DNA of 20,185 nucleotides from a virus. Below are positions 2,022 to 20,055 of this stretch, in pieces. Made by a program: the position numbers and the translations under genes. The notes beneath the pieces are model-generated. The model was not told the DNA's origin. It made no database searches and saw only the letters and a program-made list of their open reading frames with translations. The stretch lies in IMG/VR virus record IMGVR_UViG_3300006735_000349, positions 1 to 20,185 of that record; one strand, 5' to 3'. Numbering within the stretch: position 1 is the stretch's first letter; every line of letters starts with the position of its first letter.

Positions 2022-2564
2022 ATGGGATTAAAAGCAGACTTATTAGATGCAATATTACAAGCATCAGCTGATGCTGGATTTCCAGAACCGCCTGATTTAT
2101 CAAATGGGACATATCCAGAAAGATTAGCCCATTATCAAACTGAAGCTATAGTAAACTTTTTAACACAGGCTGAATTTAGAATCACTCAATTAAATGCTCC
2201 TGTTGTTGTTGACAAATTAAAAACACCAGACCAGCCTGTAAACATTGAATTGGAAACAATGTTAGGTGAATATGGACCTATCTTGAAAACATTAAAACAA
2301 ATTGGAGGCCCACTTGGTTTAGGGGAGTTAATAGATTCGTTAGAAGGCGAAATTGAAAAAGCTGTGACTCCACTATTAGAAGGTGGTGCTAAATTAACTG
2401 GATTGGATTTGGGGAAAGATGAGGGTGGATTAGAATCAACTGGTTATGTTTTTATAGGAGAGGAGCCAGATTCTAGAGATGAATTTGATGTAGATGAAGA
2501 AGATGGACAGCGAGAATTTACAACTGTAAAATTATTTAGAGATGATATTGAGGACTTATTATAA
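2022..2564 (+). CDS. Acidic protein of unknown function directly upstream of gp25
   Basis: This 180-residue protein starts at ATG 2022, six bases after GGAAG (2011-2015). Its stop overlaps the gp25 start (TAATG at 2562-2566), so the two are probably translationally coupled. Residues 1-60 are helical (MGLKADLLDAILQASADAGF). Residues about 85-130 form a glycine/leucine-rich region (LKQIGGPLGLGELIDSLEGE) that could pack as a short helical hairpin. Residues about 145-165 are strongly acidic (EEPDSRDEFDVDEEDGQREF). There is no signal peptide and no convincing membrane helix. By position it could be a small wedge, hub or inter-wedge component. T4 gp53 has a similar length (196 residues), but I see no sequence reason to equate them. 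Real gene: high confidence. Function: unknown. Confidence 0.8.
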   Translation: MGLKADLLDAILQASADAGFPEPPDLSNGTYPERLAHYQTEAIVNFLTQAEFRITQLNAPVVVDKLKTPDQPVNIELETMLGEYGPILKTLKQIGGPLGLGELIDSLEGEIEKAVTPLLEGGAKLTGLDLGKDEGGLESTGYVFIGEEPDSRDEFDVDEEDGQREFTTVKLFRDDIEDLL

Positions 2565-3031
2565 TGGCTATTAGAGATACGTCAAGAAAACCATACATTC
2601 AAGATAACGATACTCGTGTAAAAATTGGTATTGATTTACCAATTCGTAGAGATAGTGAGTTGGATGGATTTTTTGCATCAACTTCAACAACCATTGAAGC
2701 TGTAAAAAATAACATAAGAAATTTATTACAAACGGAAGAGGGTGAGAGATTCTTTCAACCAAATTTAGGAATAGGATTAAGAAAACTTTTGTTTGAACAT
2801 ATTACACAATCTAATTTAATTGGTATACAAGATGCTATATTGGATAAAATAGAATTTTGGTTACCATTTGTAGAAGTGAGAGATATACAAGTTTTAAGTA
2901 AAGAAAGTGAAACAAGTATTGGAGTAAATGAAATAAGAGTAAAAATATTATTCAACATAATACAAGACCCAACCACTTTGGATTCAATAACTTTGGATTT
3001 TTCAAGTGATGTAACAGAGGGAGATAGATAA
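2564..3031 (+). CDS. 25: Baseplate wedge subunit, T4 gp25-like (GPW/gp25 family, TssE-like)
   Basis: This 155-residue protein belongs to the gp25/W family, a small wedge protein that ties the sheath to the baseplate in contractile tails and type VI secretion systems. The family signature is clear: a helix (TIEAVKNNIRNLLQTEEGER) leads into the conserved E-G-E-R at residues 59-62, then FFQPNLGIGLRKLLFEHI. A C-terminal beta region (VRDIQVLSKES, then RVKILFNII) follows, as in the family. The N-terminal ~30 residues precede the core fold, and total length is close to T4 gp25 (132 residues) with a short extension. GAGG (2550-2553) in the last codons of the upstream gene provides the SD, and the start overlaps that gene's stop. 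The gene order 25 then 6 without a gap is typical of contractile injection machines, which strongly supports both assignments. Confidence 0.93.
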   Translation: MAIRDTSRKPYIQDNDTRVKIGIDLPIRRDSELDGFFASTSTTIEAVKNNIRNLLQTEEGERFFQPNLGIGLRKLLFEHITQSNLIGIQDAILDKIEFWLPFVEVRDIQVLSKESETSIGVNEIRVKILFNIIQDPTTLDSITLDFSSDVTEGDR

Positions 3032-5271
3032 TGCCAACATATGGTAAAGAAAACTTTAAAGAATCAAATGTAAACTATTTAAATAAAGATTTTGTAGCAT
3101 TGAAAACATCTTTGATGAATTATGCTAAATCTTATTTTCCAGATACCTATCGTGATTTTAATGAAACATCACCTGGTATGATGTTATTAGAAATGAATGC
3201 ATATGTTGGTGATGTATTATCATTTTACATTGATAAACAATATCAAGAGATGTTATTACCATTAGCTGAAGAAAGAAGAAACATAATTACAATGGCTAAA
3301 ATGTTCGGTTATAAAGTTAAACCAATTGTTCCAGCTTATGTTGATTTAACTTTTACTTCTGAGGTAAATGCTTCAAGTGGTGATGTTTCAAAAGTAGACT
3401 ACTCTAATGCTGGAACTTTTGATGCTGGTATTGAAATAACTGCAAATACAAATTCAGACATTATTTTTACAACATTAGAACCAATTGATTTTAGAATATC
3501 AGCATCAAATGATACTGAAACAATTGGAACTACAGATGCTAGTGGTTTGGCTTCAACTTATACATTATCAAGAACTGTAAGAGCTGTAAGTGCAACTCAA
3601 AAAACAATTTCATTTCAAATTGGTACACCTGAAAAATTTAAGACATTAACTATACCTGATACAAATATAATTGATATTATTTCTTGTATAGACTCAAATG
3701 GAAATAATTGGTATGAAGTAGATTATTTAGCACAAGATAAAGTTCCAATTCAAACACATTATACTAATGATATAAATAGAGATTCTGCGTATGTTGACGC
3801 TACTGGATTATCAACATCAGAAGCTGTACCTTTTTCTTTAACTTATGCTACAACTACAAAAAGATTTACTCGTGAAACAAATCAAGATAATACGACTTCA
3901 CTTGTGTTTGGTAATGGGGTATTGAAAGATGGACAACTTGTTGATGATGGGTATATTGATATGGAGCAAGTTGGAATCATAATACCTGGACAAACTAATG
4001 ATTTAAATCAATCAATTAATCCATTGTTGGGTGATGAGTATTCAACATTAGGTGAAACACCAAACCAAACTACTCTTACAATTACTTATCGTGTTGGTGG
4101 TGGGATTACTTCAAACGTCCCAAGTGGTGATGTATCAACCACACCATCTATAACTGCGCAGAGTGGAAATACATCTGCAACTTTAACAACTGTTACAAAT
4201 AACCAACCAGCTCGTGGTGGTAAGGATGAAGAAGACACTATTGAAATAAAGGAAAGAGCTAAAGCATTTTTCACTACACAAAACAGATGTGTAACAAAAG
4301 AAGATTATGAGGCTAGAGTACTAAACATACCATCTAAGTTTGGTAATATTGCAAAAGCTTATGTTACACGAGGACAAGTTTCAAATATTTTTGAATCTCA
4401 AATATATGCGGCTAATCAACAACTTATTCAATTACAACAAACTTTTCAAAGCACTATTACAGACATCGCTGATAGTGTATATGCGGATGCGGATCCGCAA
4501 ACTGTAGTAAAATTGGTTGACTTTATAAACAATTCTTTACCACAAATGTTGAATATTTCATTTTCAGGTGAAAATCCAGATGCTACAGATGCAATCTCAA
4601 CTATAAACATTTATGTATTAGGATATGATAATAGAAAACAGTTAGTTGGTAATCCTCATACAAACACAACTTTAACAAATGATAATTTACCAACCACTTT
4701 AATGATGAATATAAAAAATTATTTAGAAAACTTTAAACTAATGACGGATGTTGTTACACTTAATGATGGGTATATTGTAAACTTTGGTGTTATATTTGAT
4801 GTGATAGCTGAAAAATATGCAGATAAACAACAGGTAAAACTTAGATGTATTCAAAAAATTAGAGATTATTTTAACATTGTAAAAATGCAATTCAATCAAC
4901 CAATTTATAAAAGTAATTTAGAGTATGAATTAATGGGTGTTGAAGGTGTTCGTTCAATCGGACATGTTACTATAACTCAACACGAAGATTATTTTTATGA
5001 TGATGGGGAAACATTAACATCACCAACTTATAGTTATTCATTTGATAACTCTGTTCAATTAATAGATATAGATGGTAATGGTACATTGGATGGCAGTTTT
5101 GTTGATTCTGTTTCTACAAACAATGAAGGGACTAATGGCTATGGTTACAAATATGATTTTAAAACTGCGTTGTCAGATGATGGTACAATTGTATTACCAC
5201 CATTAACATCAACACCAACAGTTTTTGAATTAAAAAATCCAAACACAAACATACAAGGGAGAGTTAGATAA
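3031..5271 (+). CDS. 6: Baseplate wedge subunit, T4 gp6-like (baseplate J family)
   Basis: This 746-residue protein is the gp6/J-type wedge protein that dimerises to form the continuous ring of the baseplate. The N-terminus has the diagnostic pattern: NYLNKDFVALKTSLMNYAKS, a DFNETSPGMMLLEMNAYVGD segment at about residues 42-61, then SFYIDKQYQEMLLPLAEERR, matching T4-type gp6 rather than the shorter phage-Mu/P2 J form. A middle beta-rich region contains TYRVGGGITSNVP and RGGKDEEDTIEIKERAKAFF, and the J-like NRCVTKEDYEARVLNIPSKF begins near residue 420. T4 gp6 is 660 residues, so this copy is slightly long. The C-terminal ~80 residues add an acidic beta segment with a DIDGNGTLD calcium-type loop (residues 679-687). 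The gene starts at a TAATG overlap with AGAGGGAGA (3016-3024) upstream, and ends in another TAATG. Confidence 0.93.
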   Translation: MPTYGKENFKESNVNYLNKDFVALKTSLMNYAKSYFPDTYRDFNETSPGMMLLEMNAYVGDVLSFYIDKQYQEMLLPLAEERRNIITMAKMFGYKVKPIVPAYVDLTFTSEVNASSGDVSKVDYSNAGTFDAGIEITANTNSDIIFTTLEPIDFRISASNDTETIGTTDASGLASTYTLSRTVRAVSATQKTISFQIGTPEKFKTLTIPDTNIIDIISCIDSNGNNWYEVDYLAQDKVPIQTHYTNDINRDSAYVDATGLSTSEAVPFSLTYATTTKRFTRETNQDNTTSLVFGNGVLKDGQLVDDGYIDMEQVGIIIPGQTNDLNQSINPLLGDEYSTLGETPNQTTLTITYRVGGGITSNVPSGDVSTTPSITAQSGNTSATLTTVTNNQPARGGKDEEDTIEIKERAKAFFTTQNRCVTKEDYEARVLNIPSKFGNIAKAYVTRGQVSNIFESQIYAANQQLIQLQQTFQSTITDIADSVYADADPQTVVKLVDFINNSLPQMLNISFSGENPDATDAISTINIYVLGYDNRKQLVGNPHTNTTLTNDNLPTTLMMNIKNYLENFKLMTDVVTLNDGYIVNFGVIFDVIAEKYADKQQVKLRCIQKIRDYFNIVKMQFNQPIYKSNLEYELMGVEGVRSIGHVTITQHEDYFYDDGETLTSPTYSYSFDNSVQLIDIDGNGTLDGSFVDSVSTNNEGTNGYGYKYDFKTALSDDGTIVLPPLTSTPTVFELKNPNTNIQGRVR

Positions 5272-6404
5272 TGCATCATTTTATTTTTCCAAATCAAGAC
5301 ACTTGGGTATCAAGTGGTTCAAGTAAAATAGATGGGACTTCTTTTAGAGACCAAAACTTTGGAAGAGACCAAATACTTGAAGTCAAAAAAGAATTTTTTA
5401 ACAATTCATTTGACCATCAAACGAGGGCATTAATTCAATTTAGTGGAGATGAATTTACTGAATTATCTAAGTCACTTGCTGATGGGACTATATCTCCACT
5501 TAGAGGTCCTACTGCTCTTAGTGGTACAAAAATTTATCTAAGATTATTTGAAGCTGAGGGTAATGCAGAAATGACTGAAGAGTATACTTTAGCCATCCAA
5601 CCAATATCACAATCTTGGACTGAAGGTACTGGTAAGTTTGGTGATAGGCCAAAAAATAAAAATGGGTGTAGTTGGGAAAATCGTAGTAATCCAATTGGTG
5701 GTAACGCCTTAACTTGGAGTAATGCTGGTGTTGATGTATTAAGTGTCAGTCAATCAACACAGACTTTTTCAAATCAATCACCTGATGTTGATGTTAATGT
5801 AACAGATATGTTCCGTATGTGGTACAATGGTCAAGAAGAAAACTATGGAATGTTAATTAGTTTTAGTGGTAGTCAAGAAACAGATTCTTCAACATTCGGA
5901 CATTTAAAATTCTTTTCAAGAAACACACATACGATTTACTCACCAAAATTAGAAGTTAGATGGAATGATTCATCATTTTCTACTGGTTCATTGAATGAAT
6001 TAACAATGAGTGGATTAGCTGATAACTTTTTATATATGAAAGGATTGAAGGAAAGTTATAAAGTAGGTGAACGAGTTAAGTTTAGAGTTGGTGCAAGAAA
6101 AAGATATATTCAAAAAACTTTTACTAATTCAGTACAAACCGTAACTGGTTCATTCATTACTCAAGGTAGTGGTTCATATGCAATTAAAGACGTAGCTACT
6201 GATGAGTTTATTGTTCCATTTGAAGATTCAACAGGAACAAGTTATACAAAACTTAGTTGTGATGAAAACTCAAATTATTTTATTCAATATTTAGATGGAT
6301 TCTATCCCGATAGAGTTTATAAAATTTTATTAAAATTAAAATTAGATGATGGACAAGAACAAGTGTTCGATGATGATTTTGAGTTTATAGTGAAAAGGAA
6401 ATAA
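5271..6404 (+). CDS. DNRLRE-domain baseplate-associated adhesin-like protein
   Basis: Residues about 8-235 of this 377-residue protein fit the DNRLRE domain, a beta-sandwich usually found in secreted bacterial surface and carbohydrate-active proteins. The signs are, in order: DTWVSSGSS, then RDQNFGRDQILEVKK, then RALIQFSGDE, then QSWTEGTGKF; next the terminal block DVNVTDMFRMWYNGQEENYG with W184 and G187, then LISFSGSQ, HLKFFSRNTH and SPKLEVRW. Residues about 250-377 form a second all-beta region (YKVGERVKFRVGARKRYIQK through YKILLKLKLDDGQEQVFDDD). There is no signal peptide, as expected for a virion protein assembled in the cytoplasm. The start overlaps the gp6 stop, and AAGGGAGAG (5255-5263) precedes it. 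In T4 this slot holds gp7, which this protein does not resemble in size or content. I infer a peripheral baseplate protein that may bind glycans. The domain call is from motif recognition only. Confidence 0.72.
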   Translation: MHHFIFPNQDTWVSSGSSKIDGTSFRDQNFGRDQILEVKKEFFNNSFDHQTRALIQFSGDEFTELSKSLADGTISPLRGPTALSGTKIYLRLFEAEGNAEMTEEYTLAIQPISQSWTEGTGKFGDRPKNKNGCSWENRSNPIGGNALTWSNAGVDVLSVSQSTQTFSNQSPDVDVNVTDMFRMWYNGQEENYGMLISFSGSQETDSSTFGHLKFFSRNTHTIYSPKLEVRWNDSSFSTGSLNELTMSGLADNFLYMKGLKESYKVGERVKFRVGARKRYIQKTFTNSVQTVTGSFITQGSGSYAIKDVATDEFIVPFEDSTGTSYTKLSCDENSNYFIQYLDGFYPDRVYKILLKLKLDDGQEQVFDDDFEFIVKRK

Positions 6405-8153: not shown

Positions 8154-11100
8154 ATGGCTTTTCTTAAAGAAGCATTCTCTCCAGGATTTGGTGTTACTGA
8201 TGGTGTACAGCCTGAACAAACACTATTAAAACCATTTGATCCATTTAGTGGGTTGGATTTAAACTTATCTATTTTTCAAAATACAAATCAAAATCTTGAA
8301 GATTCAAATCAAGATGGTAGAATTGAATTAGGTATGTTTTCATTTAATGAAGACAATATTGCAAAAGATAATTTTCCTAATGCAGCTGCATCACCATTTA
8401 TTGGACTAACAAAAACAAATTTAGTTAAAAATGGAAATTGTAAATCTGTAGAAAAACAATTTGTTACTTTAGATGATAATCCAATTGTTGTTAAACCTGC
8501 AGGAGATTGGAAGTTTTTATCTTTATATGAACAGAAAGATGGACGTTTTAACAATCCTGATTTTCAAAATTTTCAAGGATATGGTGGTAAATATAATTAT
8601 ATTCCTCTATCATTAGAATTAGATAATGGTGATAGTGGTTTTAATTATTGGGGTAGAATTGAAAGGGCGTTTGAAGATGGTAACGCTAATGATAGTAAAA
8701 TAGCTGAATACTTTGGTTCTAATTTAAATGAATACAATACATCTTTTGACTATGGACAATCTCGTATCAATAATTCTATAAATGATTTAGTTCAAGTAAG
8801 AGCAAAAACAAGTTTTTATGGTAATGATGGAATGGCGAAAAATTCAAATACATCAACAAAACCCATACCACATATTGCTATGTGGGTAACAACACCTGAA
8901 GCTTATTCCAATAATAGGTGTTTATGTTTTATGAATTTTGAACTGTTTGGATTGTCTCAAGTTCTTGATTATACTTACACCACTGGTGGTAAGTATATTT
9001 TCAATTGGTTTATGAAAAAAAATCTACAAAGTAATGGTAAACCAGAAGAGGGTTTGACTTATGATACAAATAATGTTAATCATCACCATCAAGAACGAGT
9101 GTTAAATCAAGTACAACAAATTTATAATAAATTCAATGATGAAGAAATTAATCCATATAGTTCATTAAAAATAAGATTTAAAATGAAAACAACCAATGTT
9201 TTACCACCAGGTAATACAATTAATAATGCGAGTGACGAATCATTGTTTTTACAAAATCCACTAGACGAAAGTTTAGGTTATGCACCCAAAGTTGATATTG
9301 GTATTTTAGAAGCTCAATGGAATGAAGTTCCAAAAGCAGGTAAAAATTCTGTTCCCCAATATAGATTGGAACTAGAAGACCATACTTTTAGGTCTTCTGG
9401 TGGTTTTAATTCAAATAGATATTTTCAAGTTGATGAATTATATAAACAAGCAGATTCAAGATTTGGTGGGATGAATAGATTTCAAAATTCAATAATGAAC
9501 GAATGGGAAACATTTGAGTTTGACTTTAATTTAACAGAACAACATATGAATCGTGGTTTAATATATGGAGTTCCTTTTGGTGGTACATTTGATGATGCTG
9601 CGAATGGTGGTGTAGTTGAAATACAAATAAATACAAATTCTGATGAAGATAAACAAGTTGGTGACCAACCTGGTGAAATATTTTTTCAAATACCTGGTTA
9701 TGATAGAAACAATCCAAACATAGATGAATTTTACATAATACATCCTGATGGAACTCAAAGGAGAGTAAAACACGCTGAAGTTGGTAAATATAATGAAACT
9801 GATATAAATAGTGTTCCAACAGCTTTAGGTGATACTGGTGGTGATGCTGATGACCAACGAACTGGATTACAAGAAAGTGGTAGATTTCTTGAAGCATATT
9901 TAATGTATGTAGGTACAGTTTCAGAACAAGAAGAAATGTTTATGGAAGATGGTATTGATTATGCTGATAGTAGGGATGATTTTGGTGTAGATGAAAACCA
10001 TAGTGGGCCAGATGGAAGAGCTCCAATGGATTTAGTTCTTGCGTATTGGAATGGAGAACGATGGAGTTATGATGACAATAGTGGTTATGATGCAGGTAAA
10101 CAATTCAGTCCTGACGAAACTTGTTTCATACTTGGTAGATTGTATGCTAATCCTGCTGAACAAGGTGGTGAAGAAGAAACCAATCAAGGTATTAACCAAT
10201 TCGACCAATATATTGGTAATGAGTCTCAGTTTCCAACTGGTGGTGTGGGTAATCTGCATTTATTTTTACAGACAGGTAATAACTTTCAAGGTAGAGTGTT
10301 GATTGATGATATTGAATGTTATGAATCTTATGAGTTCATACCTGAAGTAGATGTTAGAAAAAAAATATCAGTTGATAATTATGGTTTAGCTGATTTAACA
10401 AAATACTATGATGAAGAATTGCAACCAGAAGAATATAAAGATACACAAGCACCATTGGAGGCTCAATTTTATTTTTATCCACAATATACGACTGATGAAT
10501 TGTTAGACATTGAAAGAACTCCAATTTATGAAGATTTTAAAAATGGAAAGTTTTATATTTTTGATATTGATTGGGGTGATGGTTCTGTGAATGAATTTAC
10601 TTCAAGGCCTAAACAAATAGATGAAGATACAGCTTTATATCATACATATGAAACCAATGGTGTGTTTGAAATTGTTGGTACAATGCTTAGAGTTAAAACT
10701 AATGATGATGATGAAATACTTGGAGTTATTCATAATAAAAAATTTAAATTAAGAATAAATATAAATCAAGGGAAGGATGAAGATTTTCAATATTTTGGAA
10801 GTAATGGTTTTTCTTTCATTCCATTTAAGAACACTACACCAATTGTAGGTGGAATTTCAAAGCAAAGTTCTTACTATAAAACTATAAAAAGACAACTTGG
10901 ATTTTTAGACAATGAAAAAATAAGTATAAACTTTAAAAATAAAAGTGATAAATTAAAAACTGAATTAGCTCTTTTAAAAATGGAAAATCAAAATGATTCT
11001 AATTTAGAAGTATTACCAAGTTATATGAGACAAAGATTTGATGAAAATGGTAATCTTATATACAATGGTATTACACCAGTCAAGGAAGAATTAGGAAAAG

Positions 11101-11804
11101 GAATTGGTGACTGTGATTTAACATCTATTAAATATTATAATAAACCAAAATCAATTTGGGAAATGTTTGGATTTAATGATAGAGATAGTAATGTTGATTT
11201 GGTTGCTAGAGAGGGTGAATTTATAAATAGAAGAACTGGGGAGTTAGTTCCAGCTGGCACTTTATATCATATTCATCCTGATGGTGGTCCTATGGAAGGT
11301 GGTGTACATAACACTGGAATACCTGGTGGAACTGAGGGACATGATTATTTTGATAACACTATAGCAATACCATCAAGTAATAGGTATTGGAAAAACATCA
11401 TACCTCAAGATTATTCTATATTTAATAGAGAAGGTATTGACTTAGATGCTAATGTGATTATAGATACTTATTCACAGCAAGAATGGCTTGATGGTTATTA
11501 CTATCCTGTTTTACCAAAATATAGTCAAGACGGTGAATTTATAGAAAATGATTTTCCAAATGATAAAATACCATTTCCACTACAAAGTAGTATAACAGAT
11601 GAAAAAGAAAGTGATGAAAGTTTATTAATCAGTATGAGTAATGAAAAAATAGAAGTCGATGTGTTAAATGATAGTAGTGGTAATAAAAATTATTTATTTT
11701 TATTTGATGATTTTACATCAAAATTTGATGAAAAAACTTTAAGAGTAAAAAAAGTAAGTCGAAGAAGTATGAATAAAACATCTAAACAAAATGGGGCATT
11801 TTAA
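8154..11804 (+). CDS. Giant multidomain baseplate/fibre-like protein with CBM-like, PKD and HxH modules
   Basis: This 1216-residue protein is a mosaic of extracellular-type modules. Residues 50-58 read DSNQDGRIE, a near-canonical calcium loop. From about 85, NLVKNGNCKSV starts a CBM4/9-like jelly-roll region. A second beta-sandwich closes near 713-725 with GRVLIDDIECYES. After DVRKKISVDNYGLADLTKYY comes a PKD domain: DWGDGS at 806-811 and YHTYETNGVFEIVGTMLRV from about 829. The tail opens with TTPIVGGIS at 894 and has a histidine cluster GTLYHIHPDGGPMEGGVH (H1039, H1041, H1052), then H1063. HxH sites bind iron in several phage spike and fibre tips, which is a possible role here. Residues 766-1216 resemble the C-terminal half of the next gene product. 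The last codons (NGAF, then TAATG) contain the next gene's SD. AAGG at 8141-8144 is the SD here. Specific target unknown. Confidence 0.72.
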   Translation: MAFLKEAFSPGFGVTDGVQPEQTLLKPFDPFSGLDLNLSIFQNTNQNLEDSNQDGRIELGMFSFNEDNIAKDNFPNAAASPFIGLTKTNLVKNGNCKSVEKQFVTLDDNPIVVKPAGDWKFLSLYEQKDGRFNNPDFQNFQGYGGKYNYIPLSLELDNGDSGFNYWGRIERAFEDGNANDSKIAEYFGSNLNEYNTSFDYGQSRINNSINDLVQVRAKTSFYGNDGMAKNSNTSTKPIPHIAMWVTTPEAYSNNRCLCFMNFELFGLSQVLDYTYTTGGKYIFNWFMKKNLQSNGKPEEGLTYDTNNVNHHHQERVLNQVQQIYNKFNDEEINPYSSLKIRFKMKTTNVLPPGNTINNASDESLFLQNPLDESLGYAPKVDIGILEAQWNEVPKAGKNSVPQYRLELEDHTFRSSGGFNSNRYFQVDELYKQADSRFGGMNRFQNSIMNEWETFEFDFNLTEQHMNRGLIYGVPFGGTFDDAANGGVVEIQINTNSDEDKQVGDQPGEIFFQIPGYDRNNPNIDEFYIIHPDGTQRRVKHAEVGKYNETDINSVPTALGDTGGDADDQRTGLQESGRFLEAYLMYVGTVSEQEEMFMEDGIDYADSRDDFGVDENHSGPDGRAPMDLVLAYWNGERWSYDDNSGYDAGKQFSPDETCFILGRLYANPAEQGGEEETNQGINQFDQYIGNESQFPTGGVGNLHLFLQTGNNFQGRVLIDDIECYESYEFIPEVDVRKKISVDNYGLADLTKYYDEELQPEEYKDTQAPLEAQFYFYPQYTTDELLDIERTPIYEDFKNGKFYIFDIDWGDGSVNEFTSRPKQIDEDTALYHTYETNGVFEIVGTMLRVKTNDDDEILGVIHNKKFKLRININQGKDEDFQYFGSNGFSFIPFKNTTPIVGGISKQSSYYKTIKRQLGFLDNEKISINFKNKSDKLKTELALLKMENQNDSNLEVLPSYMRQRFDENGNLIYNGITPVKEELGKGIGDCDLTSIKYYNKPKSIWEMFGFNDRDSNVDLVAREGEFINRRTGELVPAGTLYHIHPDGGPMEGGVHNTGIPGGTEGHDYFDNTIAIPSSNRYWKNIIPQDYSIFNREGIDLDANVIIDTYSQQEWLDGYYYPVLPKYSQDGEFIENDFPNDKIPFPLQSSITDEKESDESLLISMSNEKIEVDVLNDSSGNKNYLFLFDDFTSKFDEKTLRVKKVSRRSMNKTSKQNGAF

Positions 11805-11806
11805 TG
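11791..11806 (+). promoter_or_regulatory. SD and TAATG stop/start overlap at the 8154/11804 gene junction
   Basis: The final codons of the upstream gene (Asn-Gly-Ala-Phe) read AATGGGGCATTT and contain GGGG at 11793-11796, seven bases before the ATG of the next gene. The stop TAA shares its last A with that ATG. Ribosomes finishing the first protein are therefore placed to restart on the second, which implies coupled production of the two related proteins. The same layout, with GGAG in place of GGGG, recurs at the end of the second paralogue (14352-14367). Confidence 0.7.
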
Positions 11807-14365
11807 GCTCAAATAAAAAGAATAATATCTAATAAACCAAAAAGTGGTGATATAAGTCAATATAATTTTAATCAAGGTGATGCACTTGATTATGAAAATT
11901 CCAATAGTCTTCCTGAAAATTGGGATAAATTTCAAAATAAAGATTTATTTACAAATTGTGTTGGTGATAAAATTAATGATGGTATTATTGAAAAAAATCT
12001 ATCATTTCAAGGAGATACTCTTTTACAAATTGATAATTTATTTATTAAAAATACTGGTGTATCAGGAACCACAATAAATAACAAAGTTAATATATGGATA
12101 TTTTCAGAAAAAGCATATGGTGGTGATCCTACTAAAGATGGGTACACTACTGTAAAAGAGAATATGAAAGATGAATGGAAAGTTTTTTATGAAAAATTCG
12201 GTGATAAATCTGAAGGTGAAGATTTAGGTAATATAACTTCTGTAGAAGGTATTCCTATAATTAGTAATTTTTCTATTAATTCAATATCTCCTCAATTAGG
12301 AGACTTTCCTGGAATAAAATGGACTGTGGATGATGTGAATGATGATGATGGACCATTTAAACTTGATGGTAATACTGAGTCAGATTTGATAACTAGCATA
12401 TTTAATCAAGAACAATATAACCCCATATACATTGTTATTAATACAAAAGGTGATAAAGAACAATGGTGGCCTGTAAATTCAGATGAAAGAAGAAGAAAAT
12501 ACTCGGTTTACAAAATTAACAATCAAGATTTATTTCGAAAACAAGGGTCAAGTTTTCAAGGTTCAACTTTTCAAGTAAATTTAACTTCACCAAACTCAAC
12601 AAAAACTGGTGAAGGTGGTAGTGGTGCTAAAAAATCTCCCTGGTCAGTATCTTCACTTAAATTAACAATAAATACATCGGCTGGTGGTCAAAATTCTTTT
12701 ACTGGAGTTTCTAATTATCAAAACATAATACCTTCAATTTTACCAACGGCTAGAGTTAATGAAAATATTTTAAATAGTTTTGAATGGTTAGAAGCTTTAA
12801 ATCCACATTTACAACTTGACAATGATGAAATTCCTGACAATAATCCTAACTCTTCACTTAGACATCCTGATTTCATACCAATAACAACATTTGGTTTTAG
12901 TCAAAATAATTCTCTCAGTCCGCTTTATGCTGATTTACAAACTTATCATAGGGATTCTAACTCTTTAGCAAAATCATCCACTCCATTAAATGTAACATTT
13001 CAAATTAATGTTGCAAAACCTATTCCTGGTGAATTAATTGGTTTAGATTTGTATGGTGGTGGTGATAGATTATTTTATTATTTTGTAATAAGTTGGGATG
13101 ACAAAGAAGATGAAATTAAATCTATACAAGATTGGTTAGATGTAAGACCTGATAATGAATTTAAATACTTAGAACTTCTAAATCAAAATTTATATAAAAT
13201 CCAAAAAGTACCAGGTACAACTTTTAATACAGACCCAAATTATTTAGCTACTTTACCATTTCCACAATATAGAGAAGAATTTGATATAAGTAATGTTGGA
13301 GATAATATAACCTTTGACATTGTTCCTAGCACGATCAGATATGAAACTCGTGAATTGCATGGACAGGATATATCACAATGGACAGCTTTTGGTAGACCAG
13401 ATATTACACAATATTTACAACAATTAAATATTCAGGAAACCACATATGATGAAGATTTTTCTATACCTTATCCAATTAATTATTCTCAAGACTATGAACC
13501 CGATACTGAATTACAAATACCAAGTGCTCAAGATGCTGGTGTAACACCACAATCCCCAGCTAATTTTTTCAATCCAAGTTCTACATATGTTGAATCATCG
13601 ATGACTGAAACATTGAATAATGTCTATACAACACCTGGAATCAAAAATATAAAATTCATTATGTTTAGTGCTTTTGATGGTGATGGAACATCAGCTTCTC
13701 CGGATTTTGAAGTTGGAAGGTGGAAACTCTGTACATCGAGAATTTATTTAGACATACCACCAAATCAATATCCTGACTTTAATGATGTTGGTGGAAGTGA
13801 TTATACAACCCTTCCTTGGCCATATACCACACCAATAATTGGTGGATTGAGTGAAAATTCAAAATATAAAATGAGTGTTCAAGATACACTAAGTGGAGGT
13901 AAAATTAGTGAATTAGATATTATTGATGAAAAACTTTTGATTAATGATTTAGAAAATGATGAAATGGGAAAAAGTATAGAAAGTATGGATTTACAACAAT
14001 GTAGATATTTTAACACAGGTTATAGTATGTATGATTTACTTGGAATTAACGCTGTTATTAATGATAACTTAATACAATACAGTAACCCCTACTATGATGG
14101 TGATATAAATAAATTTCCGATGGAAAGTTCAGTCGGACAGATATTTATAAGTGATAATTCAGATTTAAATTTGAAACAAAGTTGTAAATTAGAATTGAAT
14201 ACAGGTGAGTTAAGTGGTAAATCAATAATTGATTCAAGTGGAAATTCTAATAAAGGAATGTTGATTGGTGATTACAAAGTTAAAAAAAATAGAAAAGGTG
14301 AACCGATGAGAAGAAATTCATTTATAAAAGTTCCTAAAAAATCAAACACTAATGGAGCACTGTAA
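11804..14365 (+). CDS. Large virion protein, diverged paralogue of the preceding protein, with interrupted PKD-like domain
   Basis: This 853-residue protein has a beta-rich N-terminus of unknown fold (about 1-390), with a glycine/serine stretch GEGGSGAKKSPWS around 267-280. From residue 393 it tracks the preceding protein: TPLNVTFQI corresponds to APLEAQFYF, and FVISWDDKEDE (W431) to the DWGDGS start of a PKD fold. About 150 extra residues follow, then VYTTPGIKNIKFIMFSAFDG (V607, Y608) matches the second half of PKD, and TTPIIGGLS at 675 matches TTPIVGGIS. SMDLQQCRYFN...MYDLLGIN and the terminal SNTNGAL also have counterparts. The WGDGS motif is degraded to WDDKE. Insert residues include a Leu/Asp-rich segment and PFPQYREEFDISNVGDNITF. 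GGGG (11793-11796) lies 7 nt before the ATG, inside the preceding gene. Inferred role: peripheral baseplate or fibre subunit, possibly partnering its paralogue. Confidence 0.7.
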   Translation: MAQIKRIISNKPKSGDISQYNFNQGDALDYENSNSLPENWDKFQNKDLFTNCVGDKINDGIIEKNLSFQGDTLLQIDNLFIKNTGVSGTTINNKVNIWIFSEKAYGGDPTKDGYTTVKENMKDEWKVFYEKFGDKSEGEDLGNITSVEGIPIISNFSINSISPQLGDFPGIKWTVDDVNDDDGPFKLDGNTESDLITSIFNQEQYNPIYIVINTKGDKEQWWPVNSDERRRKYSVYKINNQDLFRKQGSSFQGSTFQVNLTSPNSTKTGEGGSGAKKSPWSVSSLKLTINTSAGGQNSFTGVSNYQNIIPSILPTARVNENILNSFEWLEALNPHLQLDNDEIPDNNPNSSLRHPDFIPITTFGFSQNNSLSPLYADLQTYHRDSNSLAKSSTPLNVTFQINVAKPIPGELIGLDLYGGGDRLFYYFVISWDDKEDEIKSIQDWLDVRPDNEFKYLELLNQNLYKIQKVPGTTFNTDPNYLATLPFPQYREEFDISNVGDNITFDIVPSTIRYETRELHGQDISQWTAFGRPDITQYLQQLNIQETTYDEDFSIPYPINYSQDYEPDTELQIPSAQDAGVTPQSPANFFNPSSTYVESSMTETLNNVYTTPGIKNIKFIMFSAFDGDGTSASPDFEVGRWKLCTSRIYLDIPPNQYPDFNDVGGSDYTTLPWPYTTPIIGGLSENSKYKMSVQDTLSGGKISELDIIDEKLLINDLENDEMGKSIESMDLQQCRYFNTGYSMYDLLGINAVINDNLIQYSNPYYDGDINKFPMESSVGQIFISDNSDLNLKQSCKLELNTGELSGKSIIDSSGNSNKGMLIGDYKVKKNRKGEPMRRNSFIKVPKKSNTNGAL

Positions 14366-14367
14366 TG
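14352..14367 (+). promoter_or_regulatory. SD and TAATG stop/start overlap at the 11804/14365 gene junction
   Basis: The last codons of the 853-residue protein (Gly-Ala-Leu) contain GGAG at 14354-14357, seven bases before the overlapping ATG of the 1896-residue protein. The junction mirrors that at 11791-11806 in spacing and in encoded peptide (NGAL against NGAF). This suggests the gene end was duplicated together with the coupling signal, or is kept by selection on both protein and RBS. Confidence 0.7.
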
Positions 14368-17300
14368 CCAGAATTTGAATTTGAATTTAATCAACAAGAT
14401 AGAGATTTAGTAGTTACTCAATCTGAAGAAGTAGTATTTGGTGATTCTGATATTTCATTAGATTACATTCGTTTAACCATTTATCCTACTGAAGGAATTA
14501 ACAACATTGTTGATTTAGCTGATAGTACATCGGGTATAGATGGTAAGGCTATATTCTTTTCATCTTTAGATGAAGTTCAATTTGATGTAAACATTTCACC
14601 ATTTAAAGAAGATAACAAATTTACTACTCGACTTGTTGGTGGTTCGAATAATGATTTCCAAATATATAAAAATCCCAATGGAAGTATTTATATCAAACCT
14701 AATGAAATATTTAATACTTTTGATTTACCTCAGGGAAATTACAGAATACAGATTGACTTTTTAAAACAAGTTCTATCAGGCGCACCATTTATAATAAAAC
14801 AAATTTCAACTTCAAGGAAAGAAATTAGACTCAAAGTATTAAATTCTAAACTTGACAATACTTCAACTCTTATTTCTCAAATAAAAGATTTATTTAATAA
14901 CAATATTGAAGGTAGTAATCCTGAATTTCTTGAAGATACAGACGAATCATCTAATACTTTTGGTGAATTAGTAATACCAAATCCTAATTATAAATATCAA
15001 TTCAAACATATATTAAATATTGGAAATGGTGACCATATTCCAATAATGAATTATGCATTTGATAGATTTACAGATGGTAAAGAAAATCAATCTATCATAT
15101 TAAAACTTTATAATGATTTGCCAACTAATATAAGTAATTTAAAATTTGTATCAATTGAGAAAGAGATATTAACAACACAACTTCAAGATATATTTTATTT
15201 CTCTGATGTACCCGATGTTTATTTTGGTGATGGTTTATTATCAGACCCACAAGAAAATTGGATTACTTCTAATAACAATAGCATTGGATTTCAAAATTTA
15301 AATCAATTAGCCGTATCAGCTTCTATTGGTGATATTGAAATCAACTCTTTAATATCATCAAGTCAATATGATTATCCAAATCTTAATACAGATTTTAAAG
15401 AATTTTCAAATCACACATTTTTTGGTTCAGCTAAAAAGAAATTACAAAATTTTAAAACAAAAGTAGAAACTATTCAAGGACATTATACAGAAATATCAAG
15501 TTCACTTGTGGTTTCAAGTTCAATTCAAGGCGATTCCACTTTTATAATTAAAAAAAGAAAAGATTTATTTAATAAAATTAATGAAGAGTTTAAAACATTT
15601 ACACCTTATGAAAGATTTTTATATTTTGATGGTCAAACGGATTCAACTTCATCAGCTCCAAGTTTAAAAAATTATGCTGATACTTTACCAGTTACATTAC
15701 ATGGTGGTCCTGGCTCTCCTGTTGAGGGAATTGAATTAAATCAACATAATGGATTTAATGTTGTGTACAAACATTCATCAGAAAAACTATCAGGTAATCA
15801 TAATCAATATATAGATTTATTTACAGATAAATATTTTGTAGAAAATAAACCATTTTTTAATTACAGTGGTTCGATTTATTTATCATTTTTATTACAAGGT
15901 GATAGTGGTAGTTCATTGACTTGGGAAAATAGAAATAAAAGTTTAAATCCACCATTACCTCAAGATACTTTATATCAAAACAATATTTTAAATCCTGATA
16001 TGACATCAAGTGCATATCAAAGATATGTGTTTGAAGCTTCTCAATCTTATTTCATACCAAAAACAAATGGTAATGATATGGCTGATTTAAGTATCGATGC
16101 TGGTGACTTTAATGCCGGTTCTTCAAAAATTACAATTTTAAGTGGAAGTGTTAAAACAGGTTCTTACCAAATTAAAGATTCAACTAATCAGTATTCAACT
16201 ACGGTGGTAAGTCAAAGTGGTGTACCATTCTTTGGTTCAGTAATGCCAAGTGGTGAATTGTTTAGAATTTATAATCAAAACACATTGTCATCAAGTTTAA
16301 GTGGTAGTTACAATGTAGATTCCCAAACCTCAGGCGCTTCTGTTACAAACGCGATGTTAACTGACTTTAGTGGTAGAGGAAATACTGGTTCAATTGATGA
16401 AGGAACACCAAAAATATCAGATGGTGTTACTGTACATGGTAGACAATATGGAAAATCAATGTTGTTTTTAAGTGAGTCAAATGATTCCATAAGATTTTTT
16501 TCTGATAATGATTTTAACTTTAATAGAGATGATAATTTTTCATTATCCATATGGGTAAAAAGATTTCATCCAAATACAGGTTCAGCTGACTCATCACACC
16601 CTTCAACTGCAAATACACAGGCTATTTTTACAAGAGGACAAACAGGTAACTCTTATGGTATTGATTATGAATTTCACACAAACAACATAAGAGCTGCTGT
16701 AAGGGGTAATAGTTCAGAACAAGCAGCTAAAATTCAAGTAACAGATGATTTATTAAATTGGAATCATGTTGCGTTCACTTATGAAAGTGGTTCGGCTACT
16801 GGTATAAAACTTTATCTTAATGGTGAATTGAAAGCTACTCATACAACAACTGGAGCTGGTTATTCGATAACTGGTTCAAGTCATTTTTCAGCATCATCTG
16901 CTACTATAGGAGGCTCAGCTGATGCATTAAGTTTAGGTGGTAATGATGTATTAGCTGGTACAAATGGTCACTTTAATGGATTTTTACAATACCCAAGAGT
17001 TTATGGTAGAACATTAACATCTGCTGAAGTTCAACAATTGTATTTAAAACCAGATGGTATTACTGAAACAAAAATCACAGATGTAAAAGTAACATTAAAA
17101 AACCCAACTGATGTATTACCATTTGATAATATATTTAAAACAACATCTACTGAGTTTACAAATTGGTATAATGATATGTTGACAAAAGCAGAAACATTTG
17201 ATACTGATAACATACATTCATTTGAAAACAATTTACCTCTTTATATTCAAGACAGTTCTGAATACAATGATATGAAAGATTTCTTAAATCTACAAGGAGA

Positions 17301-20055
17301 ACAATATGATTTAATTAGAAACCATATTGATTCAATGGGTACAATTCATAAGAGGGGATATAAGAAAACCAACTCACCACCTGATAATACATTACCAATG
17401 TTGTTATCCAATATGGGGTGGCAAGCTATTAATCCATTTAGTGGAAGTTTAACTGATACATTGGGTAGTTATCTAAGTGGTGTAACTACAATTGATGATA
17501 TTAAAAACAACACTTGGAGAAAAACTCTAAACAATTTATTATATATTTATAAATCAAAAGGAACAAAAAACTCCGTTAGAGGATTATTAAACACATATGG
17601 TTATCCGCCTGACGTATTAAAATTTCAAGAGTTTGGTGGAGAGAGTTCTCCACGTTTAGATGGTCAAGATATTATTAATGATGAAATTCCACTTAGTGAA
17701 CCAGATAAAACCGATTTAAATTTACAATTAAGCACTGGAAGTTTTTCTTTTACCGAAAAGAAACAAAAACTTTATAATTATAATTTCAATGCAAATACGG
17801 ATAGAATTTTAAATTTAGACTGGTGGATGGATGATGCTAATATTAACACACTTGAATTTGTTTATAAACACAGTGAAACAACAAAAACACAAACAATATT
17901 GAAATCAAGTGGTAGTGGTACACAAACTCTTTGGGATTTAAGATTAATTCCAAGTTCAGATGGAGTTAGTTCATCATTTGAATTTAGATTAAATAATTCA
18001 CAAAATGGTGGCACCGATATTGGTAGTAGAGGCTTTTCGATGTCATTAGCATATAATGATATGAAAGATGGACAATTGTGGAATGTCATGATTCAAAGAA
18101 TGACTGGTTCGAGTAAAGGACCAGGAACCGCTGAATATAGGTTACATTCAGCTTTTCAAGATAAACAATCAATAGCTCCTTATAGTTATGTAACAATGTC
18201 AATTAGTGGTGGAATGGCAGGTGACTCTTCCACTCTTGGTGGTAAAGGATTTTTTGCAAATAAAAATTTCCAATCAAGTGGTTCAAGAGGAATAGACACG
18301 GCTTCAAATTTAGTAATTGGTGAAACATTTAGTGGCTCATTATCAGAAATAAAAGGTTGGGCTACTCAGTTAAGTATTTCAAAGTTCAGACAACATACAT
18401 TAAATAAATTTTCAACTGTTGGTAATACCATAAATTCACATAAAGACGATTTAGTTTATCACTTCAAATTAAATGAAAATTATATAAGTGCATCAGTATC
18501 TGCGTCTGGACAAAATTTAACAATTGTTGATGCATCACCAACAACAACTTATACTGATTATTCAATTATAAAAGATGGAGGGTTTTTTACAAGTTCAATA
18601 ATTTATGGTTTTGATTTTATAGATGTTATTAAATTAACATTAAAAGATAATGCTACTAAACCAAACGACAACACTATTTTAATAAATCCAAATCAATCTA
18701 TTATTGGTAATTTACACTTTGAAAACTCGGCTGTAGATTCATTTACAAAACCATTTGGTAAAAAACCACAATTCAATACATCGCCTAAATTAGAATTATA
18801 TCGTTCACCACAAACATTTATAGATGATTTTATATTAGATAATTTGAGTGGATTTAATTTAGAAACATTATATGGTAGTCCAATAAATTATTATTCACAA
18901 TCATATGATGAGTTTGATACATTTAGAAATGATTTCTTTACAGCTCATCCAATAGAAGTTAATGTTAATACATTTATTAGAGCTCATGAAAATATGTTTA
19001 ATGATTCTATAGCAGAGGGAATAAAAACATTAGTTCCTGCTCGTTCAACATTTAGTGGAAAAAATAGTAATGTAGGTGTAGAAATAAAGCCAACTTTATT
19101 AGAAAAACAAAAATATGAAAATGAAGAACATAGTATAGAAGCTAATCCAAATACTGGAATAGGTTCTATTGATGTTGATTCTATTACACATATTCCTAAC
19201 TCAAATTATGAAACAATAAAAGAAGGAACAATACAAGGAGTTCCATCCAATAGTGGTTCATTGGAGTTACCATTAAGTGTAACGATAAAAGTATCTGATA
19301 CTGGTAGCGATGGTAATCCTTATTTAGGAAATGCTTACATGTCTATGACAAGTTCAGTAGTAAATCCATATAGTGCTTCTTTTTCATATTCAGAAACAAA
19401 AGGAATACAAAACATACCACCAACATTATCGGGCTCATCAGTACCAACTTCAAAAAATGGAACAATTGATTACGCTTCAATAGCAAATAAATCTTTTGAA
19501 GATGTTCATAAGAATTGGGGAACAAGTTCGGCGGATGTACAACATATTAATTTTGCAGGTGGAACTGGTTCATATGGAACTTATAATACATATGATATAG
19601 AAAAAAGATTTGTATTTCATGCCATTGGTGATAATGAATATTATTCAGCATCAAGTGGTTATCCTTCACATTTTACAAACATTAATAGAATTTACAATAG
19701 ATTAATGATTGATACTAATGCACATGCAAGTGTTAGTTATCAATCTTTAATAAATGGAAGTGGTAGTGATTCAAATCAAACTGGTAAAATGATGGGTAAA
19801 ACAAGATATTTTATAACAAGTTCAGATGGGAACATCATATTACCATCAAATCACGTCACTAAGTTTAGTCAACCATTTAAAGATAGAATGAATGAAGGAA
19901 CACAAAATACAAATCCAGGTACATTACCCGTTCAACACGATGACTATTCAACAGCTTCATTTTATAGAATATCAGTTACTGGTGGTGAAAATCAACTTAT
20001 AGTAAAAGGTGGTGCAGGTAGTATTGGTGGTGGTGATAAAATAATATATGATTAA
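14365..20055 (+). CDS. Very large virion protein with two LamG/concanavalin-like domains (fibre/adhesin-like)
   Basis: This 1896-residue protein is the largest in the window. Residues 1-155 form a beta-rich N-terminal domain ending in STSRKEIRLKVL. Around 405-425 is EEFKTFTPYERFLYFDGQTD. Residues about 697-893 are a convincing LamG domain: FSLSIWVKRFHP, WNHVAFTYES, IKLYLNGELKATH and FNGFLQYPRVYGRTLTSAEV. Residues 1063-1081 (KSKGTKNSVRGLLNTYGYP) are a helical motif I associate with large structural proteins of marine phages. Residues about 1150-1355 look like a second concanavalin-like jelly roll (LDWWMDDANI through GETFSGSLSEIKGWATQLSI). Near 1558-1580, VPARSTFSG and GVEIKPTLLEKQKY form another such motif. 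The C-terminus is Gly/Ser/Asn-rich (GENQLIVKGGAGSIGGGDK). GGAG (14354-14357) lies 7 nt before the overlapping start. I infer a fibre, adhesin or outer-baseplate protein. No hydrolase or protease motif was recognised. Confidence 0.75.
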   Translation: MPEFEFEFNQQDRDLVVTQSEEVVFGDSDISLDYIRLTIYPTEGINNIVDLADSTSGIDGKAIFFSSLDEVQFDVNISPFKEDNKFTTRLVGGSNNDFQIYKNPNGSIYIKPNEIFNTFDLPQGNYRIQIDFLKQVLSGAPFIIKQISTSRKEIRLKVLNSKLDNTSTLISQIKDLFNNNIEGSNPEFLEDTDESSNTFGELVIPNPNYKYQFKHILNIGNGDHIPIMNYAFDRFTDGKENQSIILKLYNDLPTNISNLKFVSIEKEILTTQLQDIFYFSDVPDVYFGDGLLSDPQENWITSNNNSIGFQNLNQLAVSASIGDIEINSLISSSQYDYPNLNTDFKEFSNHTFFGSAKKKLQNFKTKVETIQGHYTEISSSLVVSSSIQGDSTFIIKKRKDLFNKINEEFKTFTPYERFLYFDGQTDSTSSAPSLKNYADTLPVTLHGGPGSPVEGIELNQHNGFNVVYKHSSEKLSGNHNQYIDLFTDKYFVENKPFFNYSGSIYLSFLLQGDSGSSLTWENRNKSLNPPLPQDTLYQNNILNPDMTSSAYQRYVFEASQSYFIPKTNGNDMADLSIDAGDFNAGSSKITILSGSVKTGSYQIKDSTNQYSTTVVSQSGVPFFGSVMPSGELFRIYNQNTLSSSLSGSYNVDSQTSGASVTNAMLTDFSGRGNTGSIDEGTPKISDGVTVHGRQYGKSMLFLSESNDSIRFFSDNDFNFNRDDNFSLSIWVKRFHPNTGSADSSHPSTANTQAIFTRGQTGNSYGIDYEFHTNNIRAAVRGNSSEQAAKIQVTDDLLNWNHVAFTYESGSATGIKLYLNGELKATHTTTGAGYSITGSSHFSASSATIGGSADALSLGGNDVLAGTNGHFNGFLQYPRVYGRTLTSAEVQQLYLKPDGITETKITDVKVTLKNPTDVLPFDNIFKTTSTEFTNWYNDMLTKAETFDTDNIHSFENNLPLYIQDSSEYNDMKDFLNLQGEQYDLIRNHIDSMGTIHKRGYKKTNSPPDNTLPMLLSNMGWQAINPFSGSLTDTLGSYLSGVTTIDDIKNNTWRKTLNNLLYIYKSKGTKNSVRGLLNTYGYPPDVLKFQEFGGESSPRLDGQDIINDEIPLSEPDKTDLNLQLSTGSFSFTEKKQKLYNYNFNANTDRILNLDWWMDDANINTLEFVYKHSETTKTQTILKSSGSGTQTLWDLRLIPSSDGVSSSFEFRLNNSQNGGTDIGSRGFSMSLAYNDMKDGQLWNVMIQRMTGSSKGPGTAEYRLHSAFQDKQSIAPYSYVTMSISGGMAGDSSTLGGKGFFANKNFQSSGSRGIDTASNLVIGETFSGSLSEIKGWATQLSISKFRQHTLNKFSTVGNTINSHKDDLVYHFKLNENYISASVSASGQNLTIVDASPTTTYTDYSIIKDGGFFTSSIIYGFDFIDVIKLTLKDNATKPNDNTILINPNQSIIGNLHFENSAVDSFTKPFGKKPQFNTSPKLELYRSPQTFIDDFILDNLSGFNLETLYGSPINYYSQSYDEFDTFRNDFFTAHPIEVNVNTFIRAHENMFNDSIAEGIKTLVPARSTFSGKNSNVGVEIKPTLLEKQKYENEEHSIEANPNTGIGSIDVDSITHIPNSNYETIKEGTIQGVPSNSGSLELPLSVTIKVSDTGSDGNPYLGNAYMSMTSSVVNPYSASFSYSETKGIQNIPPTLSGSSVPTSKNGTIDYASIANKSFEDVHKNWGTSSADVQHINFAGGTGSYGTYNTYDIEKRFVFHAIGDNEYYSASSGYPSHFTNINRIYNRLMIDTNAHASVSYQSLINGSGSDSNQTGKMMGKTRYFITSSDGNIILPSNHVTKFSQPFKDRMNEGTQNTNPGTLPVQHDDYSTASFYRISVTGGENQLIVKGGAGSIGGGDKIIYD

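Follow-up and report, generated by a model that had tools for sequence, protein, structure and literature searches.

Two neighbouring baseplate-operon genes of an uncultured phage group are diverged paralogues whose shared half is interrupted by insertion hot spots

Results

The baseplate locus and its relatives

The window, by which we mean the whole stretch of DNA analysed, is a virus record of 20,185 bases (IMGVR_UViG_3300006735_000349, positions 1 to 20,185), derived from an uncultured, apparently marine phage. The following genes are central to the analysis:

2564..3031, + strand: gp25, baseplate wedge (Pfam PF04965, E 8e-12; PHROG baseplate wedge subunit, E 3e-19)
3031..5271, + strand: gp6 / Baseplate_J-like protein, baseplate wedge (PHROG, E 1.8e-22; tblastn to isolates)
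5271-6404: 377-aa protein, between gp6 and the gene for a 581-aa protein (CBM96 match, E 4e-8)
8154..11804, + strand: gene A, 1216 aa (one copy per spanning contig; relatives 1058-3207 aa)
11804..14365, + strand: gene B, 853 aa (1-nt overlap between its start codon and the stop codon of A)
14365..20055, + strand: gene C, 1896 aa (Laminin_G_3 domain and KGT motif)

The 581-aa protein is encoded between the 377-aa gene and gene A, and the extents of A and B agree with those given in an earlier note on this DNA. With the genes for gp25 and gp6 nearby, the locus has the content of a contractile-tail baseplate cluster; the product of gene C may be gpI/gp7-like, to judge by its KGT motif.

Relatives were gathered from viral contigs. 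Gene maps were drawn from an iterated pass of HMMs for the whole operon, in which A and B were not separated; this inflates the scores between them, hence it served for the maps only. The order 415-131-180-gp25-gp6-377-581-A-B-C was constant, except that three contigs have an additional gene near 377. This gene, of around 1138-1272 aa, lies between gp6 and the 377-type gene in L020/L063 (3300030095_005379), L023 (3300030060_008202) and L031/L074 (3300030331_005568), being visible in the last only as a 487-aa stretch; in all three the 377-type gene is diverged and longer (414-416 aa), and 3300030095_005379 has a second 377-like gene. A DNA primase gene (L006:21945-22862; PHROG E 4e-39) was seen a short distance downstream of the baseplate cluster.

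Exactly one A and one B were found in all 36 of the contigs spanning 581 to C, from a total of 53; two copies of either gene in three contigs were taken to be single genes cut at the separations of about ten bases between stored stretches. Of 44 contigs, 39 show the 1-base overlap of A and B, and an overlap of B with C is present in 29 of 39. Hence the number of these genes per spanning contig is two, never one or three, and falls to none in the three more distant isolates or complete records and in the 80 wider relatives retrieved by means of gp6. The former, Microcystis phage Mel-JY01, Flavobacterium phage immuto and the unannotated record LR756508, have the gp25, gp6, 377 and C genes, with one smaller unrelated gene replacing 581, A and B. 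Mel-JY01 and immuto share with the window the order gp25 - gp6 - 377-type - C, and their gp6 is around 33-36% identical, but the replacing gene encodes just 413 or 112 aa. In the 80 contigs no A or B block was detected, the slot being filled by one to three unrelated genes. A slot gene of these wider relatives was considered as an ancestor of A and B and rejected, BLASTP against around 50 slot proteins giving no match. One wider relative (L141) has an open reading frame of 141 aa, resembling a GNAT acetyltransferase by eye, between the 377-type gene and C in the baseplate operon. The 377-aa protein is kept even in the distant isolates; given this conservation and its CBM96 match, a carbohydrate-binding-type fold may be a core part of the baseplate across the whole wider group.

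Searches further afield were unproductive. Neither A and B, nor their divergent members, nor the inserted module described below had a tblastn match in 50,697 phage records, so that A and B are known here from their genes alone, and 84,980 genomes of bacteria and archaea, scanned twice, gave no result. PHROGs yielded only isolated weak matches to A and B members (such as phrog_11897, E 0.003-0.009) and none to the module, and no A or B block matched a Pfam family above its gathering score.

Homology of the C-terminal halves

The earlier note had proposed, from a series of landmark motifs in the same order, that A and B are diverged paralogues over their C-terminal halves. This is confirmed. 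Plain BLASTP already aligns the two proteins (E 7e-7, A residues 865-1008 with B 646-749), with a second collinear piece at the C-terminus. HMMs built with the members of A and B kept apart recognise the opposite family in both directions: those from A alone match 29 of 46 B members (best E 2.7e-16) and those from B alone 35 of 52 A members (best E 6.6e-15; both with Z=1000), and neither has any match to other gene families of the operon (581, 377, C and gp6). HHalign of the full profiles gave a probability of 98.7% (P 2.3e-16). With inserts removed, using profiles built solely from orthologues of each gene, A 746-1216 and B 376-853 are joined by a single end-to-end alignment of 268 columns (probability 99.6%, P 9e-25), within which the landmarks lie in register. 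The homology thus covers the ranges previously suggested, 766-1216 of A and 393-853 of B, though it starts some 20 residues earlier, at around 743-746 of A and 372-376 of B; and within B only the scaffold is shared, residues 463-601 being an inserted, non-homologous module.

The shared half resolves into four blocks separated by gaps:

10380..10607, + strand: A block 1, aa 743-818, PKD-like beta-sandwich, first half (P 0.0037 by HHalign with B1, the best in its row; PKD-type chains top the fold comparison; Pfam PKD sub-threshold in 8/27 members)
10623..10901, + strand: A block 2, aa 824-916, end of the PKD-like domain and TTPI-GG motif (HHalign to B2 P 6.5e-13)
10902..11075, + strand: A gap 2, aa 917-974, site of insertions (length 58 aa in the window, up to 402 aa in relatives)
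11076..11180, + strand: A block 3, aa 975-1009, DCDLTSIKYYN..WEMFGFN (HHalign to B3 P 1.4e-11)
11181..11561, + strand: A gap 3, aa 1010-1136, hot spot for insertions at a position homologous to B gap 3 (length 127 aa in the window and 68-850 aa in relatives, whose inserts include CBM60 and EF-hand-like modules)
11562..11801, + strand: A block 4, aa 1137-1216, C-terminal domain ending NGAF (HHalign to B4 P 2.2e-8; constant C-terminal position)
12917..13189, + strand: B block 1, aa 372-462, PKD-like beta-sandwich, first half (block HHalign, fold comparison)
13190..13606, + strand: B gap 1 insert, aa 463-601, EF-hand/dockerin-like module in a loop of the PKD-like domain, as it appears from the models (close relatives lack the module at this site)
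13607..13918, + strand: B block 2, aa 602-705, end of the PKD-like domain and TTPIIGG motif (block HHalign)
13949..14050, + strand: B block 3, aa 716-749 (block HHalign)
14051..14110, + strand: B gap 3, aa 750-769, hot spot for insertions (length 20 aa in the window and 19-739 aa in relatives)
14111..14362, + strand: B block 4, aa 770-853, C-terminal domain ending NGAL (block HHalign)

When each block was compared with every other, the four proved collinear, each scoring best with its own counterpart, whilst the controls, comprising 12 off-diagonal block pairs and 16 reversed-sequence comparisons, all gave P values of 0.033 or above. Block 1, which contains the landmarks APLEAQFYF/TPLNVTFQI and DIDWGDGS/VISWDDKED, is weak by itself and takes its weight mainly from collinearity and an agreeing predicted fold. 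Comparison of the A and B blocks with 581, 377 and C gave P values of 0.0028 or higher in every case, and these families, like gp6, were not counted as members of the A/B family.

Identity between the A and B scaffolds is low, with a mean of 25% and a maximum of 33%. PKD-like folds are common, and the weakness of block 1 (P 0.0037) might be taken to suggest that the resemblance is convergence in PKD-like beta-sandwiches and in low-complexity, N/D-rich sequence. However, blocks 3 and 4, neither of which belongs to the PKD-like region, are nonetheless matched with P values of 1.4e-11 and 2.2e-8, and the reversed and off-diagonal controls are empty; the block test refutes this reading, which we regard as having almost no chance of being correct.

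AlphaFold models of A and B have a mean pLDDT of only 51-52. The region of blocks 1 and 2 is more confident in both and is the sole usable part, being PKD-like: both models have PKD and related beta-sandwich chains among their best matches, albeit with weak scores (Z 4-6; PKD chains Z 4-5 over 59-82 residues). Pfam PKD (PF00801 / PF18911) did not reach its gathering score, with a best E of 0.023 amongst the 8 of 27 A members matched. In B, the matched domain spans both sides of the gap 1 insert, so that on these models the gap would correspond to a loop within the PKD-like domain. Ig-like and PKD domains occur on phage structural proteins, and A and B resemble these in having what may be a PKD/Ig-type beta-sandwich and in being probable virion proteins. 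They differ in that this domain belongs to the conserved scaffold and, in B, is split by an insert.

N-terminal halves and the origin of the pair

The N-terminal halves of A and B have no detectable relation by HHalign (P 0.19), although very remote homology may exist. The A proteins of L057 (4286-13906) and L059 (4937-13969) are 3207 and 3011 aa long, with the conserved region beginning after around 1670-1880 residues. A segment with the pattern AYWxGERWSYDDNSGY..CFI.RLY is located in the N half of those A members that possess it, at residues ~570-690 in the window A (9861-10223), but occupies residues ~930-1015 of the L002 A, in gap 2; hence this segment also changes place. Cysteine-containing repeats of the type CxDxxAxNYDxxAxxDDGSC were seen at the N-terminus of the L010 A, in gap 3 of the L050 A and in the A proteins of L185, L186 and L188.

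In a tree of the scaffolds, a single branch with a support of 100 parts A from B, and no row is misplaced. The two scaffolds have not recombined with each other in the present data, and the event that made the pair, whether a duplication or a double acquisition, must precede the spread of this phage group. The duplication is therefore old. It had been suggested that tandem duplication of a baseplate or fibre subunit was followed by replacement of the N-terminal halves. Paralogy, the tandem position and the baseplate context, with gp25 and gp6/Baseplate_J upstream, are all borne out; replacement is not, as the P value of 0.19 fits extreme divergence equally well. Since no outgroup with a single A/B copy was found among the three isolates or complete records and the 80 wider contigs, tandem duplication is put forward as the simplest reading rather than as proven.

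The alternative is that two unrelated adhesins each acquired the shared half independently, as an attachment module providing a common dock in the manner of the N-terminal anchor of different fibres in one phage. The unrelated N-terminal halves and the lack of a single-copy outgroup among the wider relatives examined are what such a history would leave; however, A and B are adjacent, with identical orientation and order in every contig, and the part they share is long, consisting of four ordered blocks that reach the last residues. We consider separate acquisition unlikely.

The pairing itself raises the possibility, contained in the earlier note, that A and B form a hetero-oligomer, in its strongest form an obligate one joined through the shared halves and with pairing as its main function. 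The presence of one of each gene in all 36 spanning contigs and the 1-nt overlap in 39 of 44 are in keeping with this, as is the partial distance correlation of 0.46 between A and B, the highest among A, B, gp6, 377 and C, although it was obtained from only 18 contigs and from pairs that are not independent. However, constant pairing, overlap and correlation are expected of any neighbouring essential structural genes, and B and C overlap too. These signs are circumstantial, and an obligate hetero-oligomer, though compatible with the scaffold-display role discussed below, is a tentative proposal somewhat short of an even chance.

Insertion hot spots and their modules

When the block models were placed on every A and B member and the gaps between them measured, the order of the blocks and the C-terminal place of block 4 were found to be invariant, A ending in NGAF and B in NGAL with few exceptions. 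The gaps are a different matter. The one separating block 3 from block 4 differs in length among members of both families, from 68 to 850 aa in A and from 19 to 739 aa in B, indicating a hot spot at a homologous position, whilst gap 2 is variable in A only (58-402 aa) and gap 1 mainly in B (8-179 aa). Hence insertion hot spots break up the scaffold that A and B have in common, a point absent from the earlier note.

The commonest insert is a module of around 60-125 aa with the signature yLxTLPFPqYfEEFDIxgdGxixxxDxxxWxxxGRPDIA, each copy of which has one visible EF-hand-type loop, where true dockerins have a pair of EF-hand motifs. A canonical 12-residue DxDxDG-type loop is present in 22 of 63 modules, compared with 0.2 in shuffled sequences; in the copy in the window (B 463-601) the calcium loop is degenerate. 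Among PDB sequences, the module is matched best by EF-hand and dockerin chains (best E 8e-6). Pfam Dockerin_1 matches 12 of 19 modules below threshold, and Pfam EF-hand is also weak in many members, both falling under the gathering score in the L006 module. Copies occur in the N half, gap 2 and gap 3 of A, in gap 1, gap 3 and once the N half of B, in C, where relatives have it near residues 110-190, and in a 581-family protein; extra contigs retrieved by module search alone belong to the same phage group. The A inserts of several members contain CBM60-like domains (E 4e-10 and 3.6e-8), that in gap 3 of the L004 A scoring above the gathering cut-off of PF16841 (34.2 bits against 28.2). CBM60 was not found in the window.

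The position of the module differs even between close relatives. It lies in gap 1 of the window B and in gap 3 of B in L006, L007 and L008, whilst the B proteins of L017 and L020 have no insert of module size in either gap; yet the B scaffolds of the window, L006, L007, L017 and L020 are around 77-81% identical, those of L006 and L007 being 79-80% identical to that of the window. Between A and B, 16 pairs of inserts of at least 70 aa share at least 45% identity, the best reaching 62% over 98 aa. Judged against the scaffold maximum of 33%, these identities show modules to have been shared after the split of A and B. Only five matches between A and B inserts are within a single contig, hence most of the sharing would appear to have been between phages, and recent copying within one genome was rejected as the main route.

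It could be argued instead that gap 3 already contained an EF-hand-like module when A and B split, and that this was subsequently inherited and lost, with no movement between genes at all. Gap 3 is indeed homologous in A and B and has the module in both, and the module tree shows some clustering of site labels, requiring 28 changes compared with 36.8 in shuffles, a rough indication given 61 columns and few firm branches. However, the insert identities of up to 62%, the grouping of the L027 A gap 3 module with that from gap 1 of the L024 B (97/82) and the presence of the module in C and a 581-family protein all run counter to strict inheritance, which is disfavoured and seems very improbable. 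A bolder proposal in the opposite direction is that 581, A, B and C constitute one combinatorial adhesion system, in which modules from a shared pool are carried from one defined loop to another by a process that is dedicated or strongly site-directed, and the scaffolds are shielded from recombination; this we regard as improbable.

Discussion

We favour, with a probability of roughly 0.6, the reading that A and B are ancient paralogous peripheral baseplate scaffolds displaying interchangeable adhesion modules. The C-terminal halves would represent one conserved scaffold, composed of the PKD-like beta-sandwich, the TTPI-GG block, a short conserved segment and the C-terminal domain. Assembly would most likely be the task of the invariant blocks, docking each protein onto the wedge or its partner, with the loops between them acting as display sites able to accept EF-hand/dockerin-like, CBM60-like and other domains. 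The inserted modules probably bind glycans of the host surface, possibly in a calcium-dependent manner. As modules would move between sites and neighbouring genes whilst the scaffolds stay separate, adhesion could be varied without disturbing assembly.

The closest known parallel is the evolved distal tail protein (evoDit) of lactococcal skunaviruses and other siphophages, a baseplate-protein core with internal insertions encoding carbohydrate-binding modules; the presence and type of insertion vary among relatives, and one has been shown to change adsorption (PMC10688798). A and B likewise combine a conserved core with adhesion-type modules inserted in loops. However, they lie in a contractile-type gp25/gp6 baseplate cluster, a neighbourhood that argues against either being Dit, and they are two paralogous scaffolds rather than one, with several sites per protein, a single module family distributed over four neighbouring genes, and an EF-hand/dockerin-like domain as the commonest insert. 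The analogy hence supports a guess at function and not membership.

Domain shuffling in phage tail proteins is already well known: tail and baseplate proteins exchange domains, receptor-binding and baseplate proteins being over-represented among them (PMC10684548). That survey ranges across genomes and functional classes, and the word 'paralog' is absent from its text, whereas the sharing described here is between adjacent paralogues with mutually non-recombining scaffolds. The novelty lies in a fixed pair of paralogues whose scaffolds do not recombine with each other and whose modules are shared and switch sites, in an uncultured group and in families with no convincing match in Pfam or PHROGs.

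The analysis provides block models for two protein families that lie outside Pfam and PHROGs and have no detectable relative in around 50,000 phage records. It also extends the insertion of carbohydrate-binding modules, known from siphophage baseplates, to an uncultured contractile-type group and a fixed pair of paralogues, in which, by analogy, the modules plugged into the loops probably vary the grip of the virus on its host. As the scaffold is clearly separable from its cargo, the movement of modules, the tolerance of loops to insertion and a role in host range can be addressed directly.
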